A stretch of 64,000 nt of DNA. It comes from Amphibalanus amphitrite. Taxonomy: Eukaryota; Arthropoda; Thecostraca; Balanomorpha; Balanidae. The notes beneath the pieces were generated by a model. That model did no database searches, had not been told where the DNA came from, and saw nothing but the letters and a program-made list of their open reading frames with translations. The number at the start of each line of letters is the position of its first letter. Positions within the stretch are counted from its first letter, which is position 1. Made by a program: the position numbers and the translations under genes. Below are positions 2,700 to 62,074 of this stretch, in pieces. Location of the stretch: contig NW_024881673.1 of assembly GCF_019059575.1 (NCBI RefSeq), forward strand, positions 682,001 through 746,000. Reading direction: 5' to 3'.

Positions 2700-3703
2700 C
2701 CCGCGCACCGACGGGGGTCTGCGCCAACTTAGTACCGACGGGGGGGGGGGGGCGGATGACCGCCCCCCCCTGAGATCTCGAGAACGAAGCAAGATAGCGA
2801 CAAGCGGTAAACGGCATCGGATACGCACGGTCAAGATCTACAATTTTTACCAAGGTCATTTTCAGGTCAGGTCAAAGATGACGTCACAGGGGTCGAAAAA
2901 GTCAAAATGGCGGCGCTAGATATGGAGAGAGTTTTTCTCGAATAACTTTCGAATTAGTCAAGATAGGAACAAACTAAGGGCATCATCGTGATCCTCTCGT
3001 CAATCCGCATCGAATGATATATATGTTGACCTCGAAAGGTCAAGGTCAAAGGTTGACCTCAGGTCACGTGACCTCGAGGTCATCATGTATATCATTCAAT
3101 GCGTCTTGACGAGCTGAACACAATGAGACCATCCACGCGTCTGTATCTTGTTCCTGTACGGAGTTATTGGCCAAAAACCTTTGGTGACCTTTGATGACGT
3201 CACATGACCTCACAGCTGCCCAACAGCAAAACAGACCTCAAGGTAGTGAAGGTTGATCGTATATGAAGTCATGTATGGTATATGGGGCCATTCCGACCCG
3301 TTTTAATGGTAAAAACAGGGAGTTGATTTTCCCCCCATTGACTTATAATGGGGAGGTCGCGAAATTGACCTGACCTTAGGTCACTGATATCAAAATTCCG
3401 AGATATACATATTGTAGCTACTAATGACCTAATAACATCCTGCGACTTTCAAAGGCCTCCGACATCTACTGTAGCTCTGGCACGGTGACAAAGTTGCAAA
3501 AAAGTGACTTGAGGTTGGGTCATTCAAAGTGACCTGGTGACCTGACCTTAAAAGGTAGGAGGTTCAAACTTGCACACCTTGTGTAAAATTGATAAGGGAA
3601 TAGTCATACCAAATTTCGCGGCGCTACGCGCCGCGGTTTTCCCGCTATTCGCGAAAAACCTCAGGGGGGGGCGGATATCCGCCCCCCCCCGTCGGTGCGC
3701 GGG
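2700..3703 (+). mobile_element. TTAA-D element (1004 bp), copy 1
   Basis: It is flanked by TTAA at 2696-2699 and 3704-3707. The left end CCCGCGCACCGACGGGG is repeated about 27 bp inside as TACCGACGGGG. The right end is CGTCGGTGCGCGGG. G/C hairpins have cores GCGGATGACCGC (left) and GCGGATATCCGC (right). It contains the CGGCGCTACGCGCCGCGG hairpin, the CCCATTGACTTATAATGGGG module and a central inverted repeat CGAATGATAT (3011-3020) / ATATCATTC (3089-3097), with many AGGTCA half-sites between. Excision restores the LINE frame. Confidence 0.95.
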
Positions 3704-3768
3704 TTAAAAACGACCTCCCGACCCTTCTCGGAGACGACACAACATTGACAAACCTGGTAGGTACTTGA
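3704..3768 (+). pseudogene. I-type LINE ORF2 C-terminal end (part 3)
   Basis: When the TTAA-D element and one TTAA copy are removed, the zinc-knuckle frame continues from 2695 through 3708 with LPTLLGDDTTLTNLVGT and stops at TGA 3766-3768. Such a Leu-rich tail a short way after the knuckle is usual for LINE ORF2. This shows where the host LINE ended. Confidence 0.75.
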
Positions 3769-4269
3769 TTTCGTCCTAACATCACCCTACTCAGAGCTAC
3801 TTTAACGGCCTTGACTTTGAGTTAGCAGGCACCCGTCTCGCTACCACCAGGCTGACTTGTGATACGGGATGGCCGATGGGTCGAGTTTTTTTCGCTGGTA
3901 CCGAAACACAGAGCTTCGATGGCAGACGGGTTTTCTCCAGCCGCGGGAGCAGGCTTAGAGGCTCGGCGGCCCAGCGAGCTACACCAGCGGACCCCGGCCG
4001 CTGAACAGCGGCGGCGGCCGGGTTGAACGACCACAGACAACCGTCGGCCGCCAACTGCAGCAGCGACAAATTCCCTATCCTCCAAACCATTCCTTTCATC
4101 GTGACGCTTAAACATTCACAAACCCCATCCCTCCCAGCGACCTATCCCCCACTCTTCAAACCATTCCTGTCATCCAACTCTCGTCGTAACCTTACCATTC
4201 ACAAACTTCCTCCTTCCCTCCTTTCACAAACATCAATTTGCCGGTAAGTTTCACTGTCATTTATGCATC
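3769..4269. other. Unassigned segment between LINE and TTAA-M
   Basis: There is no supported gene. The first part may be LINE 3' UTR. It includes a GC-rich stretch (3940-4050) and a pyrimidine-rich stretch with repeated CAAACCATTCC (4083-4230), ending in TTTGCCGGTAAGTTTC, which resembles a splice donor. Overlapping minus ORFs of about 100 aa show no recognisable domain. Confidence 0.4.
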
Positions 4270-4273
4270 TTAA

Positions 4274-5307
4274 CCCTCGCCCTGGCAGGGGGGGTCGATG
4301 CGACCCCCCCCTAAGGTTTTTCGAAGATAGCGTAAAAACGGCGGCGCGCAGCGCCGCCAAATTTGGCACAGCTTATGGGGCAACCTTTTTACATATGACC
4401 TGAAAATTTCAGGTCTGGGTGACCTTGGGTCAGGTCACCAGGTCAGAAAAACCGGTACAAGGTCATGGTCAAATTTCAATTTTCTTTTTGCACCTGTCCA
4501 ACTCACAGTTTTGGACTGATTTCCTTCAAACTTTCAGGATGTGCTAAGTTCACCGAGTTGTATAACATATAGTTCGGGTTTTTTGAGGTCACTGACCTGA
4601 GGTCAGTTAGAGGTCATTACGTCGTAATGTTAAGCCTATGGGAAAATACTAAATTCGGAAAATACTGGAGATATCCGCTTCGTTCTATCACTTTTGTGCT
4701 TTGAAACCACAGTTCTTAACAGCAGGTCACTTGGTGCTTCTTTGTTTGGCGTACTTATCCATGGGTCAGGTCAAATGAGGTCAACTGAGGTCAAATGACG
4801 TTTTTGCCAATAACTTGGCACATAATGACGCTAGAGCTTAAAAAATGGTGTCATTGTGTTCCTGGTGATCAGCCGAATCGAATGATATGCAATATGATGC
4901 AATTTGGTTAACTTAAACTTAATTCATTACTTAAAGTTTACTTAAAATTTAAGAAAAACTTTAAGTACACTTAAGCAAGCTAAAAAGTATATCATTCGAC
5001 GCGCCTTGACGTGCTGAGTTCACTGGTGCTTTTCTTTTTGCTCTATCTTAATTAGATCAAAAGTTATAAGCGAAAAACTTTTGACCTGTTTTTAGCGAAA
5101 TTTTTACATTTATACCCCCCAAAACCCCCCTAAATATTGACCTAGAGCAACCAAATTTGCACAGGGGCGAGAACTCCAGGGGGCCCACCTACCTACCAAA
5201 TTTGGTGTTTCTAGGTGCCATAGGAGCCAATCGCGAGGGGGGGGTCGCATCGACCCCCCCCCCCCCTGCCAGGCCGTGTTATGAAAAAGGCCCTGCCAGG
5301 GCGAGGG
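4274..5307 (+). mobile_element. TTAA-M element (1034 bp)
   Basis: It is flanked by TTAA (4270-4273 and 5308-5311). The left end is CCCTCGCCCTGGCAGGGG. The right end is doubled (CCTGCCAGGCCGTG, then CCTGCCAGGGCGAGGG). Hairpin cores are TCGATGCGA (left) and TCGCATCGA (right). The central inverted repeat CGAATGATAT (4879-4888) / ATATCATTCG (4989-4998) is perfect. Its loop holds TTAAGT/ACTTAA motifs instead of the AGGTCA motifs found in other families. Confidence 0.92.
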
Positions 5308-5311
5308 TTAA

Positions 5312-5877: not shown

Positions 5878-5881
5878 TTAA

Positions 5882-7054: not shown

Positions 7055-7097
7055 TTAACAACTTGCAAGGGCTTGTGTAGGCATGCATTGCGCATCA

Positions 7098-7122
7098 GGC
7101 TTCAGGCCTTCGGCCTGAAGCC
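7098..7122. other. Perfect 10-bp stem hairpin in spacer
   Basis: GGCTTCAGGC and GCCTGAAGCC form a perfect stem around CTTCG. It lies in the short unique spacer 7059-7194 between two TTAA-C elements. Its function is unknown. Confidence 0.6.
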
Positions 7123-7198
7123 AGATACACAACCACTTAACCTATGATGCTTCATGAGCTTGAGAATCTATAGCCCATTGCAATGTGCCTTTGGCTAT

Positions 7199-8378
7199 CC
7201 CGCGCCGTGCTGGGGGGGGGGGCGTTTTTACGCCCCCCCTCAGGTTTTTCGCGAATATCTCAAAAACGGCGGCGCGCAGCGCCGCCGTTTTTGGTACACG
7301 TGTTCCTACATCATTTCCGCACATGTTGTGAAAATTTCAGACCTAGGCCGTTCAAGGTCAGGTCACCAGGTCACGTCAAGTGACCTTACCTCAGAAAAAG
7401 TTCAAAGGCTCGCTATAGCTACACCGACTGAACGATCACTTTGAAACTTTCAGCGATTGATATGAGTAACAGTATGTATAAAATGTATATCTCGGATTTT
7501 TGATATCTGTGACCTAAGGTCAGGTCAATTTTGCGACCTCTCCATTATAAGTCAATGGGAGAAAATTGAAATGCGCCTCTTTTGGACGAATATCGTTCAA
7601 AACGCTCTCAAACATCGGTTCATAGGTAAACATGACACACTGAATAGAAAAAATGCACCTGTGACCCCTCTGTGTGCCCCTGAGGTCATCTCAGGTCATG
7701 AACGGTCGCCAGCAGTTTTTTGGCTATAACTTTTGATAGAGACGTGCTAGAGCGGTGAAAACACGTCAGATGTGTTCAGCTCGACGATACGGATCGACTG
7801 ATATGCAACATGACCCTTTTCGGTCAGGTCATGACCTTGACCTGAGGTCAAATTTTCAAAATGACCTTTCAAGGTCAACAAATAGTTCATTCGACGCGTC
7901 TCGACGAGAGGAACACGATGCTGGCAAAAGTAATGTCATGGCGCTTATGAGTCAAAAGTTATTGACGAAAAAACGTTTTTCGTAAAAAAGGCTATTTTTG
8001 GAGTTTTTGCCCTCTGGAGGCTAAACCGTTGACCTGAGGTCAAATCTGAGAACATTACTCAGAAAGGTCTGTAAAAGGGCTATCGAATGCGCTTTTCCGC
8101 GGCGCTGTAGCTCTATCGGTTCCCGAGATAGCCGTTGGCAGTTTCCAAAATGTTGAAATAGTCAACATTTTACCTTTGGTGACCTCTGGTGACCTGACCT
8201 TTGACCTGACCCAAAAAATGACCGAAGTGTTTTCGTCCTTATTTTTGACGCTCTTTCGATTGCCGCTTACCGCGTGTCGCTACGTGGCCCAGGAGCCGAG
8301 TTAGACGGGGGGGGGCGTGAAAACGCCCCCCCCCCCCCAGCACTCGGCGGAAAGTTCAGGCCACCAGCACGGCGCGGG
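7199..8378 (+). mobile_element. TTAA-C element (1180 bp) in a CTAT target
   Basis: Its internal sequence is close to the 5882-7054 copy. Ends are CCCGCGCCGTGCTGGGG and CCAGCACGGCGCGGG, with hairpin cores GCGTTTTTACGC and GCGTGAAAACGC. Both flanks are CTAT (7195-7198 and 8379-8382) rather than TTAA, so the 4-bp duplication is intact but the target is non-canonical. Confidence 0.92.
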
Positions 8379-8382
8379 CTAT

Positions 8383-9420: not shown

Positions 9421-9424
9421 TTAA

Positions 9425-10307: not shown

Positions 10308-10311
10308 TTAA

Positions 10312-10789: not shown

Positions 10790-11687
10790 TTAACGAGCTA
10801 TGATTCGATGAGACTGATTTTTTTTTTGCGTGCATGAGAGAACCAACGAGACGAATTTCGAAGCAACAATGATAAATTAGAATGGATACGGTAGAAGTTG
10901 TTGCGTCTCGGACGGCCTTCCTTTTTGGAGAGACCCTGTGTCCCGGCAGCGGCTGTAGAGTAGGGTGGTCCGGTTTGCATCACTTTTTTGAAAAGTCACG
11001 GTCTCACCCCCCTATCTGGTGCATTTTGGGGCGCTGATTACGATAAGCACATTAAAAATGCAAATTTCGAATTTTTTTGTAGGCCCCGGTCGATCAAAGA
11101 TTTTGAAAATTTTGCGAATTCGCACATTTTTTACCATATATCAGAAAAATGAAGAATAAAGTTATTAAAATGATATTTAACAGATGCAGCAAACATATTC
11201 CTAGGCGTATGTGCGCAAATTAGTGAGCTAGGGCCAGCCAAATTATTTTTGGACTGAAATTACTGAGGCCATTTCCGTGTTTCCGCTCCCGGCCGCTAGG
11301 TGGCGACCGCCAGGGCGGTCGCTACCGGTAGAGGACGGGCCATCGCTCTCATGTGTTTTGACGCACTGCGACGACATTTTGAGTGACAATACTGATATTT
11401 ACAAACTAATGACACAAGCGGTGTATTATTCTGCCTATTTCAATAGAATTGGGTATGAAATACCCACAAAGGAGTACGCACCACACCCACACAGCCTGGC
11501 GATTTTGCCGGCACTAGTCACAACCACTAAACCTTACGCAACGGCATAAAACGAACAAAGCAACAACATGTGATATTTAGCACATCTCGCACAAGGAGAT
11601 TATGTCCTCTTATCCTGGTGTCCAATGTCCATCTAAGCTAGGTCACAGCGCCCGCGACTATAGCGCCACTTGGAGTCCGACTACTGA

Positions 11688-12164
11688 CTACTGCCCGCGA
11701 AAGTGACGCCGAAAGGCTATCTTATTCAAGCTATAGCCGTCCTGGCGCACCGCGCCCGCCACCGCTCCAGAGGACTGGGTGGTAAGCTTGACGGCGCGCT
11801 CTGTGGACTGGGTGTGACATGGCACCCTAGTCCGCAGCGGCTCGTCCACCAGTGCCTCCAGGTCGCCGTCACTGAGAAAGCGAACACAAGGTGGCTCTAC
11901 ATCAGCCACTCGAGCGTACATGGTGATGTCGACAAGCTCCGTGTACTGGTGAGCAGACACATTCACCGACGCGCTTTGCACACGGAACTGGCAAACTGGC
12001 CCAGGCTGCCGGCGAGCTCGTGCCTCGCGCACCATCTGCACGGCTCGTGCTCTGACGTCACGGCGCTCGTCACCGAGCATACCGAGCACCACGTTCTCAG
12101 GATGAGCCATCAACGCATTGCCGCACAAGCTACCCTGAACAGTTTGCAGGTCTGGGCCTCCCAT
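11688..12164 (-). CDS. Uncharacterised invertebrate protein fragment, left copy
   Basis: The 158-aa frame carries HPENVVLGMLGDERRDVRA near residue 20, a middle segment ending EPPCVRFLSDGDLEALVDEP, and PCHTQSTERAVKLTTQSSG near the C-terminus, followed by RQDGYSLNKIAFRR. I recall similar C-terminal segments (PCHTQ.VER.VK and DG) from uncharacterised multicopy proteins in many invertebrates; this is family memory, not a search. The first 20 or so residues come from the palindrome loop and are absent from the right copy, so this copy keeps more of the original. The 5' part is missing and no start is certain. Function is unknown. Confidence 0.6.
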   Translation of the reverse strand: MGGPDLQTVQGSLCGNALMAHPENVVLGMLGDERRDVRARAVQMVREARARRQPGPVCQFRVQSASVNVSAHQYTELVDITMYARVADVEPPCVRFLSDGDLEALVDEPLRTRVPCHTQSTERAVKLTTQSSGAVAGAVRQDGYSLNKIAFRRHFRGQ

Positions 12165-12597
12165 GTGTTGCCTCTGTCCTCATCCTGAGAACGTGGTGCT
12201 CGGTATGCTCGGTGACGAGCGCCGTGACGTCAGAGCACGAGCCGTGCAGATGGTGCGCGAGGCACGAGCTCGCCGGCAGCCTGGGCCAGTTCGCCAGTTC
12301 CGTGTGCAAAGCGCGTCGGTGAATGTGTCTGCTCACCAGTACACGGAGCTTGTCGACGTCACCATGTACGCTCGAGTGGCTGATGTAGAGCCACCTTGTG
12401 TTCGCTTTCTCAGTGACGGCGACCTGGAGGCACTGGTGGACGAGCCGCTGCGGACTAGGGTGCCATGTCACACCCAGTCCACAGAGCGCGCCGTCAAGCT
12501 TACCACCCAGTCCTCTGGAGCGGTGGCGGGCGCGGTGCGCCAGGACGGCTATAGCTTGAATAAGATAGCCTTTCGGCGTCACTTTCGCGGGCAGTAG
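12163..12597 (+). CDS. Uncharacterised invertebrate protein fragment, right copy
   Basis: This is a 144-aa inverted duplicate of the frame at 11688-12164, with the same HPENVV and PCHTQSTER motifs, the same C-terminal HFRGQ and stop, and only scattered substitutions. Its N-terminal residues (MCCLC) come from the loop junction, so its apparent start is not original. The two copies diverge from the centre. Conservation of the open frame in both arms could reflect recent duplication rather than selection. Confidence 0.55.
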   Translation: MCCLCPHPENVVLGMLGDERRDVRARAVQMVREARARRQPGPVRQFRVQSASVNVSAHQYTELVDVTMYARVADVEPPCVRFLSDGDLEALVDEPLRTRVPCHTQSTERAVKLTTQSSGAVAGAVRQDGYSLNKIAFRRHFRGQ

Positions 12598-13077
12598 TCA
12601 GTAGTCGGACTCCAAGTGGCGCTATAGTCGCGGGCGCTGTGACCTAGCTTAGATGGACATTGGACACCAGGATAAGAGGACATAATCTCCTTGTGCGAGA
12701 TGTGCTAAATATCACATGTTGTTGCTTTGTTCGTTTTATGCCGTTGCGTAAGGTTTAGTGGTTGTGACTAGTGCCGGCAAAATCGCCAGGCTGTGTGGGT
12801 GTGGTGCGTACTCCTTTGTGGGTATTTCATACCCAATTCTATTGAAATAGGCAGAATAATACACCGCTTGTGTCATTAGTTTGTAAATATCAGTATCGTC
12901 ACTCAAAATGTCGTCGCAGTGCGTCAAAACACATGAGAGCGATGGCCTGTCCTCTACCGGTAGCGACCGCCCTGGCGGTCGCCACCTAGCGGCCGGGAGC
13001 GGAAACACGGAAATGGCCTCAGTAATTTCAGTCCAAAAATAATTTGGCTGGCCCTAGCTCACTAATTTGCGCACATA

Positions 13078-16816: not shown

Positions 16817-17182
16817 CTGAAAAACGATAGATGTATTACCAGAGCCTAGACATTTGACTTTTGTTTAGTGGCAGCTTATTTCTTTGCAAAAAAGTCGCAT
16901 ATGTCAGATCATTGTAGTTCGTCACTTTTTACAAATGTCTTTTATGAATCAAGTTTCTACAGCACGTCTACTCGATACCCTCCTCAATATTCTAAATACG
17001 ACTGGATACTCGATATGCCGAAGAATAAAGCACATGCCAAACGTCATGCTGAAAGTCATTAACCCGCGAGTTGCTGGGGGGGGGGGGCGTTAAACGCCCC
17101 CACTTTTTTTCGCCGGGCCATAGCATAGAAACGGCGCGCCGCAGGCGCGCCAAATTTTGGGTACCTGTAGGGAATTGATTAA

Positions 17183-18369
17183 CCCGCGCCCTGCTGGGGG
17201 GGGGGTGTTTGAACACCCCCCCCTGTGGTTTTTCGCGAATATCTCAAAAACGGCGGCGCGGAGCGCCGCCGTTTTTGGTACACCTTATCATACATCAATT
17301 CTACACATGTTGTGAAAATTTCAGACCAAGGTCATTCAAGGTCAGGTCACCAGGTCACTCGAAGTGACCTCACCTCATAAAAAGTTTCAATGTCTGTCAT
17401 AGCTACACCGAGTGACCGATCGCTTTGAAACTTTCAGCGATTGCTAAGAGCATTAGCATGTACAAAATGTATATCTCAGAATTTTGATATCGATGACCTA
17501 AGGTCAGGTCAATTTTGCGACCTCACCATTATAAGTCAATGGGAGAAAATTGAAATGCGCCTGTTTTGGACGAAAGACATTATAAACACTCCCAAACACT
17601 GAATTACAAGTGGTTTAGACACACTGAACATGAAAATGGTGTCTGTGACCCCTGTTTATGCCCTGAGGTCATCTTAGGTCACGAATGGTATCTAACAGTT
17701 TTTCGCAAATAACTTTTGATAGAGGCATGCTAGAGCGATGAAAACGCCTTAGATGTGTTCAGCTCGACGATACGGATCGACTGATATGCAACATGACCCT
17801 TTCCGGTCAGGTCATGACCTTGACCTGAGGTCAAATTTTCAAGTTGACCTTTCAAGGTCAAATTATAGTTCGTTCGATGCGTCTTGACGAGAGGAACACG
17901 ATGCCGGTAAAAGTAAGCTCGTACAATGCTTGGGTCAAAAGTTATTGCAGAAAAACTGTTTCCGAAAAAATCGGCTATTTTTGCAGTTTTTGCCCCCTGC
18001 AGGCAAAACCGTTGACGTTAGGTCAAATCTGAGAGAATTACTCAGAAAGGGCGTTAATAGGGCTATCGAATGCGCTTTTCCGCGGCGCTGTAGCTCTATT
18101 GGTTCCCGAGTTATGCGTTGGCTTCTTGGAAATTTTCGACATTCAACCTGGAAATCGGCGAAAATTTGCCTTCAATGACCTCTGGTGACCTGACCTTTGA
18201 CCTGACCAAAAAATTGACCGAAGTGATTTCCTCATTATTTTTGACGCTCTTTCGAACGCCGCCTTCCGCGTATCGCTACGTGGCCCAGGAGCCGAGTTAG
18301 AAGGGGGGGTGTTCAAACACCCCCCCCCCAGCAGGGCGTGGAAATCCAGGACCCCCAGCCGGGCGCGGG
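17183..18369 (+). mobile_element. TTAA-C element (1187 bp) inside TTAA-E
   Basis: It is flanked by TTAA (17179-17182 and 18370-18373). The empty site is preserved in the paralogous E copy (GGGAATTGATTAAAG near 28558). The left end is CCCGCGCCCTGCTGGGG. The doubled right end carries CCCAGCAGGGCGTGG, then CCCCCAGCCGGGCGCGGG. Hairpin cores are GTGTTTGAACAC and GTGTTCAAACAC. By eye it contains about 21 AGGTCA/TGACCT half-sites. Confidence 0.95.
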
Positions 18370-18807
18370 TTAAAGTTGATTGTGACAATGTTTCAAAAAA
18401 AATATGTCGGAAAATTTTTGAGATATCGAGGTTTTAGTGACGTCATAATTTCTGAGTTTTCGACCAAAAACAGCATACCTATGTTCAAAAAATCATATAA
18501 AATCACGGAATAGCCTCTTGAGTCCCGCTAATTCGCCCATGAATGGAGAGCAGCGAAACTTTTTTGGCTGAGAGCTTTGGTGCCAATAATGACCAGATTG
18601 GTGACATTTCAGCCGTGAAGGTCATCGCGCATGCGCAGTGACATGTATACTGGGATATACAAAAATACTCAAAGCCTATAAAATCTGACTGAAATGCAAC
18701 CCATGAAAACTTCAATACAAACACCAAAGTGTATTTTTTCGTTTGTTTAGGGCGTAAAATGGCTAATAGTATTGACACGTTTAATTATCAACACCACTCG
18801 CCCTTAA

Positions 18808-21902: not shown

Positions 21903-21906
21903 CTAG

Positions 21907-23084: not shown

Positions 23085-23832
23085 CTAGCCATTAGTGAAT
23101 ACCGTAGAGATCGACTTAAGACAATGTATACCCCAGTATACAAAAAGAACCAAGAGGATAGACATACAGACATGCCGTAAACGCCATTAGACTGACAATA
23201 CCATGAACAATCAAATGGCTATCTTCGATTATTGATTATCGTTCCGCATTTTCCAAAATCTCGAACTGAATCTTGGCAGTTTCTCGTGACTACTTCACGA
23301 CCATAATACACATATTTCTTAAATTGAACTTTTTTAGCCAAACACGTACACATATGATAAAATGAATGCCACCATTGTGTTCTACGCCCCAAAATACCCA
23401 TAAAACATGTGCCACAGGCTGCGAATATCAGTTTTGATTTTCGGGGATATGTGCCTGCCCGGTTGACCTGACCTTGACCCTGACCTATGCTTGACTGACC
23501 CCTACATGGAGCTGACACTCTTGTAGGCCTTATATGATGGATTGTGCACCGTTTTGACAGAGTTTATGACGAGAGGCGCCCATTGCGAAGTCCTGAAGTC
23601 CATGCTACTGAAAGCCCGATTTCAGGTGTTTGACCTGACCTTGACCCGACCTCTGATCTCAAAATTCAACTTTAAAGTACTCATCTGAAGCGTCTCGTCG
23701 CGTTCTTTCGTTTGCCGCCTCGTGCGTTTCGCTGCGCGTATTGGTTCTCGAGTTATCGGCTGGGGGCGTTTTACGCCCCCCCCCCCCCAGCAAACGGTGG
23801 GTGGCGAAATACCCCAGCAACTGCCGGGTTAA

Positions 23833-25199: not shown

Positions 25200-25515
25200 G
25201 GACGCCATTTAATTGCGTCCCAGAAAAGCTATTTCTGGCACCTAAAAGCTGACTCGCCCCAAAATTGGTCCTCAGCACCTATTTGGTGGATACCAGCACC
25301 AATCATGGAAAATGACCTTAATTAGCTGTTTCTGGCACCTATTCATCGGTACGCGTTACTCTTTTTTCTGAATCTGGCACCTAAATGCTGACTACTGGCT
25401 GGTAGAATCATGTTGTTCTGGTATAATGAACCCTGGAGTCTAGCCTAAAGGTTGCCAGTGCAGCTACACTCTAAGACAGCCCCGTAGTGATCTCAGCATT
25501 GTATATGACGTTTAA

Positions 25516-26521
25516 CCCGCGCACCGACGGGGGTCTGCGCCAACTTAGTACCGACGGGGGGGGGGGGCGGATGACCGCCCCCCCCCCCCCTGAGATCTCG
25601 AGAACGAAGCAAGATAGCGACAAGCGGTAAATGGCATCGGATACGCACGGACAAGGTCTACAATTTTTACTAAGGTCATTTTCAGGTCAGGTCAAAGATG
25701 ACGTCACAGGGGTCGAAAAAGTCAAAATGGCGGCGCTAGATATGGAGAGGGTTTTTCTCGAATAACTTTCGAAGTAGTCAAGATAGGAACAAACTAAGGG
25801 CATCATCGTGATCCTCTCGTCAATCCGCATCGAATGATATATATGTTGACCTCGAAAGGTCAAGGTCAAAGGTTGACCTCAGGTCACGTGACCTCGAGGT
25901 CATCATGTATATCATTCGATGCGTCTTGACGAGCTGAACACAATGAGACCATCCGCGCGGCTGTATCTTGTTCCTGTAAGGAGTTATTGGCAAAAAACCT
26001 TTGGTGACCTTTGATGACGTCACATGACCTTACAGCTGCCCAACAGCAAAACAGACCTCAAGGTAGTGAAGGTTGATCGTATGTGAAGTCATGTATGGTA
26101 TATGGGGCCATTCCGACCCGTTTTAGTGGTAAAAACAGTGAGTTGATTTTTCCCCCATTGACTTATAATGGGGAGGTCGCGAAATTGACCTGACCTTAGG
26201 TCACCGACATCAAAATTCCGAGATATACAAATTGTAGCTACTAATGACCTAATAACATCCTGCGACTTTCAAAGGCCTCCGACATCTACTGTAGCTCTGG
26301 CACGGTGACAAAGTTGCAAAAAAGTGACTTGAGGTTGGGTCATTCAAAGTGACCTGGTGACCTGACCTTAAAAGTTAGGAGGTTCAAACTTGCACACCAT
26401 ATGTAAAATTGATGAGCGAATAGTCATGCCAAATTTCGCGGCGCTACGCGCCGCGGTTTTCCCGCTATCCGCGAAAAACCTCAGGGGGGGCGGATATCCG
26501 CCCCCCCCGTCGGTGCGCGGG
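25516..26521 (+). mobile_element. TTAA-D element (1006 bp), copy 2
   Basis: TTAA flanks are 25512-25515 and 26522-26525. It is nearly identical to copy 1 in ends, hairpin cores (GCGGATGACCGC and GCGGATATCCGC), the CATTGACTTATAATGGGG module and the central inverted repeat. It is nested three levels deep: D in the 9-bp-TSD element, in the mariner, in the host intron. Confidence 0.95.
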
Positions 26522-26525
26522 TTAA

Positions 26526-30074: not shown

Positions 30075-30179
30075 CTGAAACACAATAGATAAATATTTAG
30101 CACTTGCACCATTTGTAGGTAATACAGATAACACATACACAATTCATGAGTTCCTGTGCACTGTCAATACAATAGTTAA

Positions 30180-31177
30180 CCCGCGCACCGACGGGGGTCT
30201 GCGCCAACTTCGCACCGACGGGGGGGGGGGGCGGATGACCGCCCCCCTGAGATCTCGAGAACGAAGCAAGATAGCGACAAGCGGTAAATGGCATCGGATA
30301 CGCACGGTCAAGATCTACAATTTTTACTAAGGTCATTTTCAGGTCAGGTCAAAGATGACGTCACAGGGGTCGAAAAAGTCAAAATGGCGGCGCTAGATAT
30401 GGAGAGAGTTTTTCTCGAATAACTTTCGAATTAGTCAAGATAGGACCAAACTAAGGGCATCATCGTGATCCTCTTGTCAATCCGCATCGAATGATATATA
30501 TGTTGACCTCGAAAGGTCAAGGTCAAAGGTTTACCTCAGGTCACGTGACCTCGAGGTTATCATGTATATCATTCGATGCGTCTTGACGAGCTGAACACAA
30601 TGAGACCATCCACGCGGCTGTATCTTGTTCCTGTACGGAGTTATTGGCCAAAAACCTTTGGTGACCTTTGATGACGTCACATGACCTCACAGCTTCCCAA
30701 CAGCAAAACAGACCTCAAGGTAGTGAAGGTTGATCGTATATGAAGTCATGTATGGTATATGGGGCCATTCCGACCCGTTTTAGTGGTAAAAACAGGGAGT
30801 TGATTTTTCCCCCATTGACTTATAATGGGGAGGTCGCAAAATTGACCTGACCTTAGGTCACCGATATAAAAATTCCGAGATATACAAATTGTAGCTACTA
30901 ATGACTTAATAACATCCTGCGACTTTCAAAGGCCTCCGACATCTACTGTAGCTCTGGCACGGTGACAAAGTTGCAAAAAAGTGACTTGAGGTTGGGTCAT
31001 TCAAAGTGACCTGGTGACCTGACCTTAAAAGGTAGGTGGTTCAAACTTGCACACCATGTGTAAAATGGATGAGAGAATAGTCGTACCAAATTTCGCGGCA
31101 CTACGCGCCGCGGTTTTCCCGCTATTCGCGAAAAACCTCAGGGGGGGCGGATATCCGACCCCCCGTCGGTGCGCGGG
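30180..31177 (+). mobile_element. TTAA-D element (998 bp), copy 3
   Basis: TTAA flanks are 30176-30179 and 31178-31181. It is nearly identical to copies 1 and 2, with the inner left repeat GCACCGACGGGG. It sits in an intron, ending only about 15 bp from the splice donor of the microexon at 31193. Confidence 0.95.
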
Positions 31178-31192
31178 TTAAAAAACACTCAC

Positions 31193-47700: not shown

Positions 47701-47714
47701 ACCCATCGGTTTGA

Positions 47715-49793: not shown

Positions 49794-50445
49794 TTAACAC
49801 TCGCACCGACGGGGGTCTGCGCCAACTTCGTAACGACGGGGGGGGGGCGGATGACCTCCCCCCACCTGAGATCTCGAGAACGAAGCAAGATAGCGACAAG
49901 CGGTAAACGGCATCGGATACGGACGGACAAGGTCTACAATTTTTACGAAGGTCATTTTTAGGTCAGGTCAAAGATGACGTTACAAGGGTCAAAAAAAGTC
50001 AAAATGGCGGCGCAAGATATGGAGAGTTTTTCTCGAATAACTTTCGAATTAGTCCAGATAGGAACAAACTAAGGGCATCATCGTGATCCTTTCGTCAATC
50101 CGCATCGAATGATATATATGTTGACCTCAAAAGGTCAAGGTCAAAGGTTGACCTCAGGTCACGTGACCTCGAGGTCATCATGTATATTATTCGATGCGTC
50201 TTGACGAGCTGAACACAATGAGACCATCCGCACGGCTGTATCTTGTTCCTGTACGGAGTTATTGGCAAAAAACCGCTGGTGACCTTTGACGACGTCACAT
50301 GACCTTACAGCTCTGCCCAACAGCAAAACTGACCTCAAGGTAGTGAAGGTTGATCGTATATGAAGTCGTGCATGGTATATGGGGCCATTCAGACCCATTT
50401 TAGTGGTAAAAACAGGGAGTTGATTTTTCCCCCATTTACTTATAA

Positions 50446-52272
50446 CCCGCGAGTTGCTGGGGGGGGGGGGGGCGTTAAACGCCCCCACTTTTTTCGCCGG
50501 GCCATAGCATAAAAACGGCGCGCCGCAGGCGCGCCAAATTTTAGGTACCTGTAGGGAATAGATTGAAGTTTATTGTGACAAAGTTTCAAAAAATCGGTCG
50601 GAAATTTTTGAGATCGAGGTTTTAGTGACGTCATGATTTCTGAGTTTTTGACCAAAAACGGCATATGTTCAAAAAATCATATAAAATCACAGAATAGACA
50701 TACAGACATGCCGTAAACGCCATTAGATTGGCAATACCATGAGCCATCAAATGACTTATCTTCGATTGTTGATTATCGTTCCGCATTTTCCAAAATCTTG
50801 AACTGAACCTTGGCAATTTCTCGTGAGTACTCTACGACCATGATACATGCATTTCTTAAATTGAACTTTTTTAGCCAAACACGTACACATATGATAAAAT
50901 GAATGTCACCATCGTGTTCTACGCCCCAAATTACCCATAAAACATGTGTCACAGGCTGCGAATATCAGTTTTGATTTTCGGGGATATGTGCCTACCCGGT
51001 CGACCTGACCTTGACCCTGACCTATGCTTAACCCTCGCCCGCACATGCCATTTTCCCATCCTAGAACGCACATGGGGGGGGGGGTGGTTGCCACCCCCCC
51101 TGCGCCATTTCGTTCCTGTTGGAGATAGAGCTTAGCGGTAAAGACCAAAAAGATTCTTTGGGAAGAGACGAATCCAATGATACCCAGTTTTACCTTCTCA
51201 GGTCACTCATTGACCTTCCAGGTCAGGTCAAACTAAAAAATGTTGCTGTTTTGGGTCACCGTTGGATATCAAGTGCGCTGCTTGTCATATACCGATTACG
51301 ATGCCGTTTTCTGGTGCCAGGCCAGCTATAACCTCTTTGTCACACTACCCGACCAGGTTTTTGCTGCTGAGGTCATTTCAGGTCAAGTTAGGTCAAGGTC
51401 AATTATATGTGTTTGTATGTCTGTGTGTGTCTCTGTGTATACTGATGTGTGCACCGATTGTTTATGTGTCCATATTACATGAAATCATGATCTGAGAAGC
51501 TTTTACCAAAAATGCAGTCAAAAAACTTCACAAAAAGTAAATTCCGCTAGCCTAAAACGCAATTATCTTAGATGACCTAGGTTGACCTTGACCTTGACCT
51601 TGACATCTGTACATCGTCGAACAACATGTTCCATGATAGGTGGGAGGTAAGACTGGCAAGAAAGGCCGAAATCAAGGTGTCAAAAGCTCACAAGGCTCAT
51701 AGCCAACGCAAGATGTTGAGAATTGGCCATTTGGGCCATGACATGACCTGAAAAACAAGGTCATATCTCCGAAACCAAAAACCACAGAAACTTGAAATTT
51801 TCAGTGGACATCAAGAAAGGATAGAGGAGAAGCTATACGAAAAATCAGCTTTCTAGCTCTAAAAATGTTGAGTGCAGAGCAGAAAGACTACCTGGAGGGG
51901 GGGGGGGGGGTGGCAACCACCCCCCCCATGTGCGGGCGAGGGTTAACTGACCCCTACATGGAGCTGACACCTTTTAGGCCTTATATGATGCATTGTGTTT
52001 TGACAGAGTTTATGACGAGAGGCGCCCATTGCGAAGTCCTGAAGTCCATGCTACTGAAAGCCCGATTTCAGGTGTTTGACCTGACCTTGACCCGACCTGT
52101 GACCTCAAAATTCAACTTTAAAGTACTCATCTGAAGCGTCTCGTCGCGTTCTTTCGTTTGCCGCCTCGTGCGTTTCGCTGCGCCTATTGGTTCTCGAGTT
52201 ATCGGCTGGGGGCGTTTAACGCCCCCCCTCCCAGCAAACGGTGGGTGGCGAAATACCCCAGCAACTGCCGGG
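50446..52272 (+). mobile_element. TTAA-E element in an ATAA target, split by TTAA-F
   Basis: Ends CCCGCGAGTTGCTGGGG and CCCAGCAACTGCCGGG are as in the reference copy. Both flanks are ATAA (50442-50445 and 52273-52276). The other D copies read ACTTATAATGG at this place, so the target really was ATAA and the 4-bp duplication is exact. E-derived parts are 50446-51026 and 51947-52272. Confidence 0.93.
51031..51942 (+). mobile_element. TTAA-F element (912 bp)
   Basis: TTAA flanks are 51027-51030 and 51943-51946. The left end CCCTCGCCCGCACATG is repeated inward as AACGCACATGGGG. The right end is CATGTGCGGGCGAGGG. Hairpin cores are GGTTGCC and GGCAACC. It has few AGGTCA sites compared with C or D, near 51200-51250, 51370-51410 and 51580-51600. 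Confidence 0.93.
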
Positions 52273-52640
52273 ATAATGGGGAGGTCGCGAAATTGACCTG
52301 ACCTTAGGTCACCAATATCAAAATTCCGAGACATAAAAATTGTAGCTACTAATGACCTTATAACATCCTGCGACATTCAAAGGCCTCCGACATCTACTGT
52401 AGCTCTGGTACGGTGACAAAGTTGCAAAAAAGTGACTTGAGGTTGGGCCATTTAAAGTGATCTGGTGACCTGACCTTAAAAGTTAGGAGGTTCAAACTTG
52501 CACACCATGTGTAAAATTAATGAGAGAATAGTCGTACCAAATTTCGCTGCGCAACGCGCTGCGGTTTTCCCGCTATTTGCGAAAAAACCTCAGGGAGGCG
52601 GATATCCGCCCCCCGTCGGTGCGCGTGTTAAGGTGATTAA

Positions 52641-53244
52641 AACCCACGAGCCGCTGGGCGGGGGGCATAAAGTTGCCCCCCACCCTTTACGTTTTGTGAA
52701 ATATCTCCGAAACCTGATGAGCTACGAACGTGAAACTTGGCATAGCTTCAAATGAATACCTAGGCAATGTTTGAGGAAAGTTTGGTGGTTGTAGCACCTA
52801 AGATGACGTCACAGTGACGTCATAAAGTTTTGTCGTTTTCCGATATGGACCGTTTCTGATGACGCTGAGCATGAAACTCAACTGTAAATGAACTAGACAG
52901 CACCTGCTGTCATCCTAAAACATCTAACTACACTTCCATCTAGTTTCTGACCAATAATCGACCCTTTATATTCGGTCTCATATATCTGATGTATCGTGAG
53001 GAATGTGAGAGTCGCAAATCTATAATTCCACTTATGACGTCACTGTGACGTCATTCCGAATGGGATCGACACCAAGTTTGGACACCACCTCGGCTAGGTA
53101 TTCAGGAAGATGTGTGCAAAGTTTCGCTTCTCTATCTCTTCGCGTTGCGACGATATTGTCGCAGAAGTAAAGGGGGGCAACTATATGCCCCCCCCCCAGC
53201 GGCCGGCGCGCGGCGGGTGGCGCGGAGGCCCAGCGGCCGCCGGG
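52641..53244 (+). mobile_element. TTAA-N element (604 bp)
   Basis: The left end is AACCCACGAGCCGCTGGG. The right end is doubled (CCAGCGGCCGGCGCG, then CCCAGCGGCCGCCGGG). Hairpin cores are GCATAAAGTTGC and GCAACTATATGC. The flanks share 13 bp, TTAAGGTGATTAA, on both sides (52628-52640 and 53245-53257). It has TGACGTCA pairs near 52803 and 53035 and few AGGTCA sites. Confidence 0.85.
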
Positions 53245-53257
53245 TTAAGGTGATTAA

Positions 53258-54436
53258 CCCGCGCCCTGCTGGGGGGGTGTTTGAACACCCCCCCTTGTGG
53301 TTTTTCGCGAATATCTCAAAAACGGCGGCGCGGAGCGCCGCCGTTTTTGGTACACCTTATCATACATCAATTCTACACATTTTGTAAAAATTTCAGACCA
53401 AGGTCATTCAAGGTCAGGTCACCAGGTCACTTGAAGTGACCTCACCTCATAAAAAGTTTCAATGTCTGTCATAGCTACACCGAGTGACCGATCGCTTTGA
53501 AACTTTCAGCGATTGCTAAGAGCAATAGCATGTACAAAATGTATATCTCAGAATTTTGATATCGATGACCTAAGGTCAGGTCAATTTTGCGACCTCCCCA
53601 TTATAAGTCAATGGGAGAAAATTGAAATGCGCCTCCTTTGGACGAAAGACATTATAAACACTCCCAAACACTGAATTACAAGTGGTTTAGACACACTGAA
53701 CATGAAAATGGTGTCCGTGACCCCTGTTTATGCCCTGAGGTCATCTTAGGTCACGAATGGTATCTAACAGTTTTTCGCAAATAGCTTTTGATAGAGACAT
53801 GCTAGAGCGATGAAAACGCCTTAGATGTGTTCAGCTCGACGATACGGATCGACTGATATGCAACATGACCCTTTCCGGTCAGGTCATGACCTTGACCTGA
53901 GGTCAAATTTTCAAGTTGACCTTTCAAGGTCAAGTTATAGTTCATTCGATGCGTCTTGACGAGAGGAACACGATGCCGGTAAAAGTAAGCTCGTACAATG
54001 CTTGGGTCAAAAGTTATTGCAGAAAAACTGTTTCCGAAAAAATCGTCTATTTTGCAGTTTTTGCCCCCTGCAGGCAAAACCGTTGACGTTAGGTCAAATC
54101 TGAGAGAATTACTCAGAAAGGGCGTTAATAGGGCTATCGAATGCGCTTTTCCGCGGCGCTGTAGCTCTATTGGTTCCCGAGTTATGCGTTGGCTTCTTGG
54201 AAATTTTCGACATTCGACCTGGAAATCGGCGAAATTTTGCCTTCAATGACCTCTGGTGACCTGACCTTTGACCTGACCAAAAAATTGACCGAAGTGATTT
54301 CCTCATTATTTTTGACGCTCTTTCGAACGCCGCCTTCCGCGTATCGCTACGTGGCCCAGGAGCCGAGTTAGAAGGGGGGGTGTTCAAACACCCCCCAGCA
54401 GGGCGTGGAAATCCAGGACCCCCAGCCGGGCGCGGG
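53258..54436 (+). mobile_element. TTAA-C element (1179 bp)
   Basis: TTAA flanks are 53254-53257 and 54437-54440. It is nearly identical to the copies at 17183 and 32837. Ends are CCCGCGCCCTGCTGGGG and the doubled CCCAGCAGGGCGTGG / CCCCCAGCCGGGCGCGGG. Confidence 0.95.
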
Positions 54437-54440
54437 TTAA

Positions 54441-54551: not shown

Positions 54552-54555
54552 TTAA

Positions 54556-55730
54556 CCCGCGCCCCACTGGGGGGGGGCTATTTATAGCCCCCCCTCCCGT
54601 TTTTCTGCAATAACTTCCAAACCGCTTGACGTATCGACGCCAAACTTTCAGTACCTTCGGCTGCATCAATTTGACACCTTGTGTCAAAATTTGAACTTCG
54701 TAGCTACCATAGGTCGGCCGGAAATGACGTCAGAGTGACGTCATGTTCGGCCGATTTCGACGCAAAACATTGAACCACGGCAATCGTTCCCAAGGGCTCA
54801 GTTTTTGAGCTAGATCCAATTTCTTTGCATGAGAGGACTCCGAATAGACTGCGCTATCAAACTGCTATCTCGGATTTTTGAAATTTTGAAAATTTTGAAA
54901 ATTTCATATAATGAAATTCAAAATTTACATTTTTACATTTTTTTCAAAAAGTTTTTGACTTTTCCAAAAAACCGGAATATATGTGATAGAACGCGTTATT
55001 ATGACTAACTCTAGCAAGTTTTAGCTAAATATCTTCAAAAATGACCAAGTTATACGCATTATTGCAAAAAATTCACAATTATTAATTTTTCAAATCAATT
55101 TTTCAGCACGTATTTGACATCGTACGCCAATATAAATAGCACCATCGTGTTCCTGAGCTCAAACTGCATCCAATAGACACCTTTTTTGTTGAAAAATTTT
55201 ACCTTCAAAATTTGACCTTTTTTGACCTGAAAGTGACCTGACCCTAAGCTAAATTCGACTCAAAATGACCTCGAATGACACAGACGACATCAAATTCGAA
55301 ATCTTTGGCCTAAATGGACCATAAAACATGTGTCACGTGACCGAGGAATGATATAATATTTTCGTGACCTGTGACGACCTGACCTTGACCTGAAAATCAA
55401 AGCACAAGTTTGGTACCCTCAGGGTATCTAGAACATCTGTTCACGAGTGTGTGAACCAAAAATGAGCCTGATCTGACTTGTAAGACGGCGGCCAGAGCCC
55501 AAAACGTGAACAAGCCAAAATGCTAATAATTTTTACTTTGACCTGACCTGTGACGTCATCGGTGACCTCGAGGTCAATGAAATTAGGTTTCGCTCGACAG
55601 TTTTTCCGGGGCTATCAGACGCCGTTTGAATTTTGACGATCGGCCCAGTAGTTTCGGAGTTAGGAGGGGGGGCTATGAATAGCCCCCCCCCAGTAGGGCG
55701 TGTTATACGCAGACCCCAGTGGGGCGCGGG
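54556..55730 (+). mobile_element. TTAA-H element (1175 bp), copy 2
   Basis: TTAA flanks are 54552-54555 and 55731-55734. It is nearly identical to 20202-21382 and 60901-62074, with cores GCTATTTATAGC and GCTATGAATAGC. It shares its right TTAA with the next element. Confidence 0.95.
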
Positions 55731-55734
55731 TTAA

Positions 55735-56614
55735 CCCTTGCCCGTATTGGTGTTTTTCCAGCCGCGAACGTATAAGGGGGGGGTACGTTGGACCCCCCTT
55801 GCCGTTTTGCCCCTGATCGAGCTAGAACTTCGCGGAAAAAAAAAAAACGAGCGTGTTGCCCGTGACGAGAGGAAGCCGATGATACCCAATTTTAAGGTCC
55901 TAGGTCATTGGTTGACCTTGCAGGTCAGGTCAATGACCCCAAAGGCGGGAAAATCGGGACCTGTTAGAACGTCGTAAAGTGTGGCTGCTATGGGGTTTTT
56001 CGGGGAGCTGATCACGAATATCATGTTAGTTTTTATCACAGATATGATGTCTTCATGTATTTAGGCCAGGTCGGGTCAGGTCAGGTCAACCAGTACGGGT
56101 ATTCGTAGTAGGTGGCAACCGCTTCTGACAGCTTCGTAACATGTTACGAAGGCACCAAAACTACTTCGTAAATGTTCATATGGTTGCTAAATTCGAATTC
56201 AGCTCTAAAAACTGGCCTAGAAACATGTAAAACTCGAAATAAGTGAACCGAGGTCATCAAAGGTCAATGACCTGACCTGACCTTCAGGTGAACTTCACAC
56301 CCACCCTAATGCATGGGGGCAACATCATATCACATGTTTGAACGCTTGAAACCACGAAAAGACTGCAAACGCGCGGCTAATGCGAGCCGATATACGCCGA
56401 ATCGCGATTCCAGCCAAACATGGTCTCGAAAAGTAGGTCACAGGTCACAGGTCATTTGGGTCAGGGTCATACAATTTTCAGGGTAGGTGTGAAATTGATA
56501 AACGCAAGACTACTGAAAGTTTCGTCGCGATCGGCCGCTTTTTACGCGAGTTATTCGCGAAAAACCATGGGGGGGGGTCCGTTCGACCCCCCCCCCCCCC
56601 TATACGGACGAGGG
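55735..56614 (-). mobile_element. TTAA-I element (880 bp)
   Basis: TTAA flanks are 55731-55734 and 56615-56618. The left end CCCTTGCCCGTATTGG is repeated inward as GAACGTATAAGGGG. The right end is CCTATACGGACGAGGG. Hairpin cores are GTACGTTGGAC and GTCCGTTCGAC. The central palindrome CTTCGTAACATGTTACGAAG is at 56132-56151. Confidence 0.92.
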
Positions 56615-56618
56615 TTAA

Positions 56619-57464: not shown

Positions 57465-57468
57465 TTAA

Positions 57469-58646: not shown

Positions 58647-58650
58647 CTAA

Positions 58651-59088: not shown

Positions 59089-59092
59089 TTAA

Positions 59093-59988
59093 CCCTCGCC
59101 GGCACAGGGGGGTTGATGCAACCCCCCCTAAGGTTTTTCGCGAATAACTCGCGTTAAAAGCGGCCGATCGCGACGAAACTTTCAGTACCCTCGCAATGAT
59201 CAATTTTACACCTACCCTGAAAATTTCATGACCCTGACCCCAATGACCTTTGACCTGCGACCTCTTCTCCGAGACCATGTTTGGCCGGAATCGCGATTCG
59301 GCGTATGTCGGCTAACATTAGCCGCGCGTTTGCAAGTTTTTTTTGTGGTTTCAAACGTTCAAACATGTGATTTGATGTCGCTCCCATACATTAGGGTGGG
59401 TGTCAAGGTCACCTGAAGGTCAGGTCAGGTCATTGACCTTTGGTGACCTCGGGTGACCTCGGTTCACTTGTTCGAGTTTTACATGTTTCTAGGCTAGTTT
59501 TTGGAGCTGAATTCGAATTTGGCAACCATTTGAACATTTACGAAGTAGTTTTGGTGCCTTCGTAACATGTTACGAAGCTGTCAGAGGCGGTTGACACGTA
59601 TTACGAATACCCGTCACAACCCCTACCGGTTGACCTGACCTGACCTGACCCGACCTGGTCTAAATGCTTAAAGTCATCATCTCTGATCAAAACTAACACG
59701 ATATTCGTGATCAGCGCCCCGGAAAACCACATAGCAGCCACAATTTACGACTTTCTAACAGGTCCCGATTTTCCCGGTTTTCGGGTCATTGACCTGACCT
59801 GGAAGGTCACCCGATGACCTCTGACCTTAAAATTGGGTATCATCGGCTTCGTCTTGTGACGGGCAACACGCTCGTTTTTTCCGCGAAGCTCTAGCTCGAT
59901 CAGGGGCCAAACGCGAGGGGGGGTCGTACCAAACCCCCCCCCCCCTTTGTGCCGTCGGAGGACGCAAAATGGCCTGTGCCGGCGAGGG
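59093..59988 (+). mobile_element. TTAA-I-related element (896 bp)
   Basis: TTAA flanks are 59089-59092 and 59989-59992. The interior is the reverse complement of TTAA-I (shared palindrome CTTCGTAACATGTTACGAAG at 59558-59577). The terminal motif differs: CCCTCGCCGGCACAGGGG on the left and GCCTGTGCCGGCGAGGG on the right. Hairpin cores are GTTGATGCAAC and GGTCGTACCAAACC. Confidence 0.92.
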
Positions 59989-59992
59989 TTAA

Positions 59993-60896
59993 CCCTCGCC
60001 CGCACATGGGGGAAGGGGGGTGGTTGCCATCCCCCAGGTAGTCTTTCTGCTCTGCACTCAACATTTTTAGCGCTAGAACGCTGATTTTTTGTATAACTGC
60101 TCCTCTATCCTTTCTTGATGTCCACTGAAAATTTCAAGTTTCTGTGATTTTTGGTTTCGGAGATATGACCTTGTTTTTCAGGTCATGTCATGACCCAAAT
60201 GGCCAATCCTCAACATCTTGCGTTTGCCATGGGTCTTGCGAGCTTTTGACACCCTGATTTCGGCTTTTTTGCCAGTATTACCTCCCACCTATCATGGAAC
60301 ATGTTTTTCGACGATGTACAGGGGTCAAGGTCAGGGTCAAGGTCAACCTAGGTCATCTAAGATAATTGCGTTTTAGGCAAGCTGAATTTACTTTTTTTTA
60401 ATTTTTTTGACTGCATTTTTGGTAAAAGCTTCTCAGAGCATGATTTCATGTAATATGGACCCAAAAACAATCGGTGCACACATCAGTATACACACAGACA
60501 CACAGACATATAAACACATATAATTGACCTTGACCTAACTTGACCTGAAATGACCTCAGCCGCAAAATTCTGGTCGGGTAGTGTGACAAAGAGGTTCTAG
60601 CTGGCCTGGCACCAGAAAACAGCATCGTCATCGGTATTTGATAAGCAGCGCACTTGATATCCAACGGTGACCCAAAACAGCAACATTTTTTAGTTTGACC
60701 TGACCTGGAAGGTCAATGACTGACCTGAGAAGGTAAAACTGGGTATCATTGGATTCGTCTCTTCCCAAAGAATCTTTTTGGTCTTTACCGCTAAGCTCTA
60801 TCTCCAACAGGAACGAAATGGTGCGGGGGGGGGTGGCAACCACCCCCCCCCCCCATGTGCGTTCTAGGATGGGAAAATGGCATGTGCGGGCGAGGG
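59993..60896 (-). mobile_element. TTAA-F element (904 bp), reverse orientation
   Basis: TTAA flanks are 59989-59992 and 60897-60900. It is the reverse complement of 51031-51942 throughout. The doubled end is on the right (CATGTGCGTTCTAGG, then CATGTGCGGGCGAGGG). It shares a TTAA with both neighbours. Confidence 0.95.
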
Positions 60897-60900
60897 TTAA

Positions 60901-62074
60901 CCCGCGCCCCACTGGGGGGGGCTATTTATAGCCCCCCTCCCGTTTTTCTACAATAACTTCCAAACCGCTTGACGTATCGACGCCAAACTTTCAGTACCTT
61001 CGGCTGCATTAATTTGACACCTTGTGTCAAAATTTGAACTTCGTAGCTACCATAGGTCGGCCGGAAATGACGTCAGAGTGACGTCATGTTCGGCCGATTT
61101 CGACGCCAAACATTGAACCACGGCAATCGTTCCCAAGGGCTCAGTTTTTAAGCTAGATCCAATTTCTTTGCATGAGAGGACTCAGAATAGACTGCGCTAT
61201 CAAACTGCTATCTCGGATTTTCAAAATTTTGAAAATTTTGAAAATTTCATATAATGAAATTCAAAATTTACATTTTTACATTTTTTCAAAAAGTTTTTGA
61301 CTTTTCGAAAAAAACGGAATATATGTGATAGAACGCGTTATTATGACTAGCTCTAGCAAGTTTTAGGTAAATATCTTCAAAAATGGCCAAGTTATACGCA
61401 TTATTGCAAAAAATTCACAATTATTAATTTCTCAAATCAATTTTTCAGCACGTATTTGACATCGTACGCCAATTTAAATAGCACCATCGTGTTCCTGAGC
61501 TCAAACTGCATCCAATAGACACCTTTTTTGTTGAAAAATTTTAACTTCAAAATTTGACCTTTTTTGACCTGAAAGTGACCTGACTCTAAGCTAAATTCGA
61601 CTCAAAATGACCTCGAATGACACAGACGACATCAAATCCGAAATCTTTGGCCTAAATGGACCATAAAACATGTGTCACGTGACCGAGGCATGATATAATA
61701 TTTTCGTGACCTGTGATGACCTGACCTTGACCTGAAAATCAAAGTACAAGTTTGGTACCCTCAGGGTATCTAGAACATCTGTTCACGAGTGTGTGAACAA
61801 AAAATGAGCCTGATCGGACTTGTAAGACGGCGGCCAGAGCCCAAAACGTGAACAAGCCAAAATGCTAATAATTTTTACTTTGACCTGACCTGTGACGTCA
61901 TCGGTGACCTCGAGGGCAATGAAATTAGGTTCCGCTCGACAGTTTTTCCGGGGCTATCAGACGCCGTTTGAATTTTGACGATCGGCCCAGTAGTTTCGGA
62001 GTTAGGAGGGGGGCTATGAATAGCCCCCCCCCCCCAGTAGGGCGTGTTATACGCAGACCCCAGTGGGGCGCGGG
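60901..62074 (+). mobile_element. TTAA-H element (1174 bp), copy 3
   Basis: TTAA flanks are 60897-60900 and 62075-62078. It is nearly identical to the copy at 54556. The AT-rich tract is at 61210-61290. Confidence 0.95.

Follow-up and report, generated by a model that had tools for sequence, protein, structure and literature searches.

A 64-kb stretch of one contig of the barnacle Amphibalanus amphitrite (hereafter the window; the genome is 807.5 Mb) contains short, TTAA-flanked elements which are very probably non-autonomous, of the kind known as miniature inverted-repeat transposable elements (MITEs), and belong to the piggyBac clade typified by the transposon of Trichoplusia ni (T. ni), with a short core near each end that would serve, as duplex DNA, as the site for a dimer of the cysteine-rich domain (CRD) of the matching transposase. 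The identification as piggyBac follows from the TTAA duplication, the CCC tips, a short and a long end with the piggyBac offset, cores that match between ends, and the presence of transposase-bearing relatives for three of the families in the window. Among 705 candidates, the genome also has 150 scored matches to PF00379, a cuticle family found mostly in arthropods, which agrees with an arthropod source.

An earlier sequence-only reading of this DNA had described a superfamily of TTAA elements with a G-run, a core and a C-run just inside each end, and this description is borne out by 24 elements with both ends, whose boundaries were set by hand from lists of ends. They fall into 13 families: C, H, D, E, M, F and A, together with C2, C3, K, N, P and Q. 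The seven cores quoted in that reading are all present, six of them only between a G-run and a C-run; the F core, GGTTGCC, lies between the runs at the ends of its element and has some chance matches elsewhere. The layout of the ends is TTAA-CCC-box-G(n)-core-C(n). Leaving aside the two that contain another element, the elements measure 612-1197 bp (22 elements), and none of the 15 open reading frames (ORFs) of at least 150 aa in the window lies fully within an element. Short, non-coding, high in copy number and defined by their ends, the elements have the properties by which MITEs are recognized. They are listed here with their coordinates, strand and, where given, the cores of the short end (LE) and the long end (RE); 'TTAA' stands for TTAA on both sides.

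2696..3707 (-), family D element; RE core CGGATGACCG on the left, LE core CGGATATCCG on the right; TTAA
4270..5311 (+), family M element; core TCGATGCGA at both ends; TTAA
5878..7058 (+), family C2 element; LE TGTTTGAACA, RE TGTCTGAACA; TTAA
7195..8382 (+), family C3 element; LE CGTTTTTACG, RE CGTTTTCACG; CTAT duplicated, not TTAA
9421..10311 (-), family E element; core CGTTAAACG at both ends; TTAA
17059..17101 (+), lone LE of family E; the partner end of this copy was not found
17179..18373 (+), family C element; core TGTTTGAACA at both ends; TTAA
18804..19850 (-), family A element; RE core of the CGGGTACGA type (also read TACGA), LE core CGGGTGCCG; TTAA
20198..21386 (+), family H element; LE CTATTTATAG, RE CTATTCATAG; TTAA
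21903..23088 (+), family K element; LE CCAAGG, RE CCATTTTGG; CTAG duplicated; ends 92% and 89% identical to the C702 transposase-bearing copy
25512..26525 (-), family D element; TTAA
28446..29381 (+), family E element; TTAA; ends 77% and 87% identical to the C552 transposase-bearing copy
30176..31181 (-), family D element; TTAA
32833..34028 (+), family C element; TTAA
41109..42305 (-), family C element; TTAA
49794..52631 (-), family D element; contains an E element that itself contains an F element; LE G-run interrupted and LE core therefore unscored
50442..52276 (+), family E element within D; ATAA duplicated; empty site in three other D copies
51028..51946 (-), family F element within E; core TGGTTGCCA at both ends; TTAA; three other E copies intact at this point
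52637..53248 (+), family N element; LE CATAAAGTTG, RE CATATAGTTG (weak palindrome, nearly the same sequence); TTAA, the left tip with two extra A
53254..54440 (+), family C element; TTAA
54552..55734 (+), family H element; TTAA
55731..56618 (-), family P element; RE TACGTTGGA, LE TCGAACGGA; one TTAA in common with the H element on its left
59089..59992 (+), family Q element; LE TTGATGCAA, RE TTTGGTACGA; ends 92-95% identical to the C778 transposase-bearing copy
59989..60900 (+), family F element; TTAA in common with Q and with H; LE G-run interrupted
60897..62078 (+), family H element; TTAA

The ends and their cores

In every delimited family one end is short and the other long. Measured from the tip, the middle of the core is at 24.5-33.5 bp in the LE (mean 28.6, 23 ends) and at 50.5-62.5 bp in the RE (mean 56.9, 24 ends). 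With the G-run excluded, the RE offset exceeds that of the LE by 26-28 bp in 19 of 23 elements and by 19.5, 29.5, 31 and 31 bp in the remaining four. By eye, part of the tip box is repeated just before the core in the long end of C, H, E and others, while inside the core a motif like GGTTTTTCGCGAATA stands at many LE and a ATCTCGAGAAC-like motif or AACTCGG at many RE (14 elements).

Across the whole genome, the forward-strand end pattern TTAACCCN{10,40}GGGGGGN{5,20}CCCCC has 45,099 matches, against 20 for a backwards control; the reverse-strand count (176,295, control 9) seems inflated by overlapping starts and was left unused. The bare pattern GGGGG-core-CCCCC with cores of 9-10 bases occurs at 102,605 places (backwards control 3,503), a copy number that contrasts with at least 116 matches to the transposase family PF13843 (116 of 232 candidates scored). 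Because the runs are this abundant genome-wide, a local assembly artefact can be set aside, with the qualification that single run lengths may still be misread.

Self-complementarity of the cores is far above that of shuffled letters: 129 of 195 core pairs in 44 distinct cores are complementary, against a shuffled mean of 55.2 and a largest shuffled value of 80. This symmetry, and the long G:C stem that the runs would contribute, speak for one of the two roles offered by the sequence-only reading, an extruded structure used in transposition, taken here as a cruciform or a single-strand hairpin formed by G-run, core and C-run and serving directly as substrate or signal. We nevertheless consider extrusion quite unlikely. 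The arms are unmatched in length: outer G-runs of 6-17 and inner C-runs of 5-14 are uncorrelated (rho 0.008, 47 ends), and at 6 of 6 family E ends a C5 faces G7-G17. Moreover, cores that pair poorly with themselves (CTATTTTTTG, CGTTTTTCG and that of N) are kept between ends by sequence and orientation, CTATTTTTTG and CGTTTTTCG having an end-to-end identity of 1.00 in the inverted reading as opposed to 0.40 and 0.44 in the direct one, and a protein dimer on a duplex palindrome accounts for the symmetry, with a solved precedent in T. ni piggyBac as described in the cited part of PMC7351741. Classification as a cruciform-dependent element, for which matched arms conserved by pairing would be diagnostic, is likewise disfavoured by the run lengths and by the conservation of sequence rather than of pairing.

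Cores agree exactly between the two ends in families C, E, M and F, and with one or two differences in D, H, C2, C3 and N. The match is partial in A (CGGGTGCCG / CGGGTACGA), K, P and Q, as it is in the coding families aut1 (C44) and aut2 (C33), so that the earlier claim of the same core at both ends of an element stands, exactly or nearly, for the first two sets of window families and only in part for the third. In a test built by hand from 14 families (12 from the window and two from transposase-bearing copies, with one hand-chosen representative each and C2 omitted as near-identical to C), identity between LE and RE cores was 0.82, against 0.56 for shuffled partners, and 0 of 100,000 shuffles were as high; a family's own partner ranked top in 10 of the 14, the exceptions being A, P, Q and aut2.

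An unselected sample of 100 listed core places, all on contig C1 and outside the window, held 44 distinct core sequences, point variants included. Neighbour pairs were formed within it by distance alone (700-1400 bp), and pairs that join different elements were kept and lower the mean. Mean core identity in the 35 resulting pairs was 0.88 in the inverted reading (0.558 when shuffled, 0 of 100,000 as high), with 19 pairs identical; when each of the 21 distinct pair types was counted once, the values were 0.816 and 0.546 (again 0 of 100,000).

Such a match could also arise by neutral descent of inverted repeats that have no recognition function, the families being drifted copies; among the 25 longest of 946 pairs of repeat arms in the window, identity is mostly 79-98%, which makes a match within any one family trivial. 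This explanation is improbable when families are compared with each other, since tip box, G- and C-runs and inner motifs hold their position while the core changes wholesale, and at both ends together. Sequences just inside the core differ between LE and RE, yet the core is the same (14 elements), and the cores of E, K and Q recur in the transposase-bearing copies described below.

Transposase-bearing relatives and the proposed role of the core

Twelve T. ni-like loci were examined, of 72 matches listed, and 11 of them have a core-bearing, correctly oriented end. Both ends bear cores at six loci (C44, C1173, C33, C702, C778 and C552, the last counted as two-ended on the assumption that the ~17 kb between its two ORF pieces is an insertion), and only the 3' end does so at five (C1010, C698, C412, C1318 and C512). 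The LE of C412, C1318, C1010 and C698 was not found within the flanks examined, and at C152 no core-bearing end was found. C1010 and C698 were assigned to the group nearest T. ni by a separate match listing. At all 11 core-bearing loci the long end lies 3' of the ORF, which is also its location in T. ni piggyBac, an element whose tip letters are CCC.

Three window families have close relatives among these loci. Family E matches the C552 copy at 77% over 224 bp in the LE and 87% over 208 bp in the RE; family K matches the C702 copy at 92% over 383 bp and 89% over 131 bp; and family Q matches the C778 copy at 92% over 197 bp plus 93% over 222 bp, and at 95% over 166 bp. On these alignments, the window copies of E, K and Q look like internal deletions of coding elements. 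A candidate for the autonomous relative that the sequence-only reading had proposed to look for is thus known for each of these three families, and no transposase-bearing copy with the ends of the other 10 (C, C2, C3, H, D, M, F, A, N or P) was found among the loci examined.

Two of the T. ni-like transposases were compared with solved structures. P0008 matches the T. ni protein (6x67) at 9e-79, in an alignment that runs through the C-terminal CRD, and P0002 does so at 1.3e-56; both alignments reach 6x67 residue 593, and both proteins match 6x67 far better than piggyBat (9c0f). The PF13843 loci examined form roughly three score groups, with L012, L018 and L019 intermediate between two of them, and the single representative compared from each of the other two groups is closer to 9c0f. 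The G-run ends belong to the score group nearest T. ni piggyBac, and the tips of the other groups, where seen, are without runs. Among the first 30 PF13843 loci (L009-L038), 29 are not T. ni-like and one, L036, is; many of their tips are of the TTAACCCATTAG type and several loci have no TTAACCC tip. No G-run ends of their own were seen in the ~1.5-kb flanks of these loci, and the G-run ends around them are, by eye, those of neighbouring or surrounding elements. The own ends of L042, L045, L047 and L049, in the third score group, were not found. Palindromes just inside the tip, again without G-runs, were noticed by eye in other piggyBac groups (L009:412, L035:3469 and L044:1024).

That a non-piggyBac superfamily targeting TTAA moves C, H and D, for none of which a transposase-bearing copy was found among the loci examined, and that their ends resemble those of piggyBac relatives by convergence, is hardly credible. 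C, H and D have the same tip, the same 26-28-bp shift and similar inner motifs as E, K and Q, the families with coding piggyBac relatives.

For elements mobilized by a piggyBac transposase, the core domain of the protein would read the tip box, which is repeated once in the long end, while a dimer of the CRD, a C-terminal cysteine-rich zinc domain, would bind the palindromic core as duplex. The core would then determine which transposase mobilizes a family, and we propose that a single protein has to synapse the two ends and that they share one core for this reason. By analogy, then, the core is most likely a family-specific binding site of the CRD. The G- and C-runs would extend the half-sites of the palindrome, and the outer G-run would double as a spacer of variable length, tolerable by a flexible CRD linker. 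Predicted proteins of seven families have the Cys/His pattern of a C-terminal cross-brace CRD, which differs from that of T. ni in a longer loop between the second and third Cys and in an Arg that replaces Tyr558 before the first Cys in all seven; Tyr558 is named as crucial for recognition in PMC7351741. Since the Arg is present in all seven CRDs, a shared contact with the G-run is conceivable, and that the Arg makes this contact is a fair guess and no more.

Several observations weigh against this reading. Nothing like the G-runs is described for the T. ni ends. Differences between LE and RE cores fall at 17 of 88 positions in the inner half and at 9 of 88 in the outer half (20 hand-listed families). 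The RE cores of A (18804 end), Q (59992 end) and aut1 (L039:888) have the inner half TACGA in common, with outer halves that differ, and the C778 copy of Q has TGCGA in place of TACGA in its RE core. From the inner-half excess and the common TACGA, the two halves of the core may not be read alike. A code relating CRD to core was not detected across seven families (Mantel rho 0.06, 1923 of 5040 permutations as high), in a test where two of the seven were represented by an RE core only and the core letters were chosen by the analyst; aut1 and Q, and E and V, are similar in both CRD and core, and aut2 and fam5 have the most similar CRDs yet unlike cores. The L039 transposase is frameshifted near its C-terminus, and the window families without a transposase-bearing copy, listed above, count on the same side. 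The suggestion of the sequence-only reading that the core could be a recognition tag pairing the ends of one family is supported by the matching cores.

A more speculative extension, towards which we lean less than away, is that the genome carries dozens of piggyBac end-pairs on one chassis. The core would be an exchangeable address read by a diversifying CRD, with families orthogonal to one another; the runs would provide a shared contact, perhaps with the invariant Arg, and a length-tolerant spacer that let cores turn over while synapsis is preserved, and the hybrid RE cores, in which TACGA as inner half is joined to an outer half particular to the family, would be intermediates of such turnover. 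One architecture in any case accounts for tens of thousands of insertions in one genome. piggyBac is a main gene-delivery tool, and the specificity of CRDs for palindromes so far rests on few solved systems (T. ni piggyBac and piggyBat, as far as we have seen). With the 44 distinct cores and seven core/CRD pairs, one can test directly whether a specificity code exists, whether end-pairs are orthogonal and why the ends are asymmetric.

Target sites, junctions and other features of the window

TTAA stands on both sides of 21 of the 24 elements, a count that is not independent of how they were chosen, by TTAACCC-like tips, and the other three have an exact duplication of CTAT, CTAG or ATAA. These exactly duplicated non-TTAA 4-mers (CTAT at 7195-8382, CTAG at 21903-23088 and ATAA at 50442-52276) appear to be occasional alternative targets. 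Both nested insertions have empty sites: the rejoined flanks of F within E, and of E within D, give the sequence that is uninterrupted in three other E and three other D copies, respectively. At the site of F within E the other E copies read TTGA and the interrupted copy has TTAA.

Abutting elements of different families have a single TTAA in common at H-P (54552-56618) and at Q-F-H (59089-62078), as if the duplicated target had been reused. The sequence TTAAGGTGATTAA occurs twice as a joint between the D, N and C elements (52628-52640 and 53245-53257). Two C elements (33125-33204 and 53542-53621) are ~91% identical over 80 bp to the D flank formed by 50425-50445 plus 52277-52335, and the families look like mosaics. 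Elsewhere in the window, 11208-13077 consists of two 899-bp arms that are 100% complementary and 72 bp apart, either a large inverted repeat of very recent origin or a fold-back made in assembly, and the ORFs at 1713-2471 and 62153-63469 match RNase H and zf-RVT and are probably retroelement remains.

Comparison with known piggyBac systems

The sequence-only reading knew of no described element type with this exact plan. This is not borne out as regards the kind of element, which is already known: these are piggyBac MITEs, and T. ni piggyBac itself has TTAA targets, asymmetric ends and a CRD-bound palindrome in the cited parts of PMC7351741 and PMC11707139. As these sources describe it, the T. 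ni element has asymmetric LE35 and RE63 ends (PDB 6x67/6x68; PMC7351741) and a palindromic 19-bp internal repeat in both of them that is bound by a CRD dimer (PMC7351741, PMC11707139). The dimer occupies LE bp 17-33, where the minor groove is narrowed at ~bp 25; RE bp 34-63 repeat LE bp 7-35 almost exactly (PMC7351741), 27-28 bp further in. The palindromes of LE and RE are identical and asymmetrically arranged, and the CRD of piggyBat recognizes an unrelated palindrome (PMC11707139). A piggyBat tetramer (PMC13405395) and CRD diversity (PMC8086355) are also described.

The barnacle elements have in common with T. ni piggyBac the TTAA target, a short LE and a long RE with a duplicated box, a PF13843 transposase with a C-terminal CRD, and a palindromic internal repeat at both ends at nearly equal offsets (~25 in T. 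ni, with the shift of 27-28). They differ in that the barnacle cores have another sequence, vary by family and sit between variable G- and C-runs. With piggyBat of Myotis lucifugus (PDB 9c0f), as far as the cited portions of PMC11707139 and PMC13405395 describe it, they have in common the superfamily and imperfect palindromes bound by a CRD dimer; piggyBat differs in having its palindromes in the LE only, in three copies, and in another CRD fold. Among the matches listed, titles and abstract openings mention no palindromic cores flanked by G- and C-runs in piggyBac MITEs, subscription journals and Repbase being outside the scope of that survey.

A further comparison is with the coral CMITEs, MITEs that likewise derive from piggyBac, duplicate TTAA, have CCC tips and fall into several families of one structure (cited part of PMC2872659). 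They differ in being ~100 bp long and in having tips that vary while the interiors are common, and that part of the source describes neither a palindromic core nor G/C runs. While the barnacle elements are of a known kind, then, the variant that they represent, with homopolymer-flanked, family-specific cores and a very high copy number, may be new.

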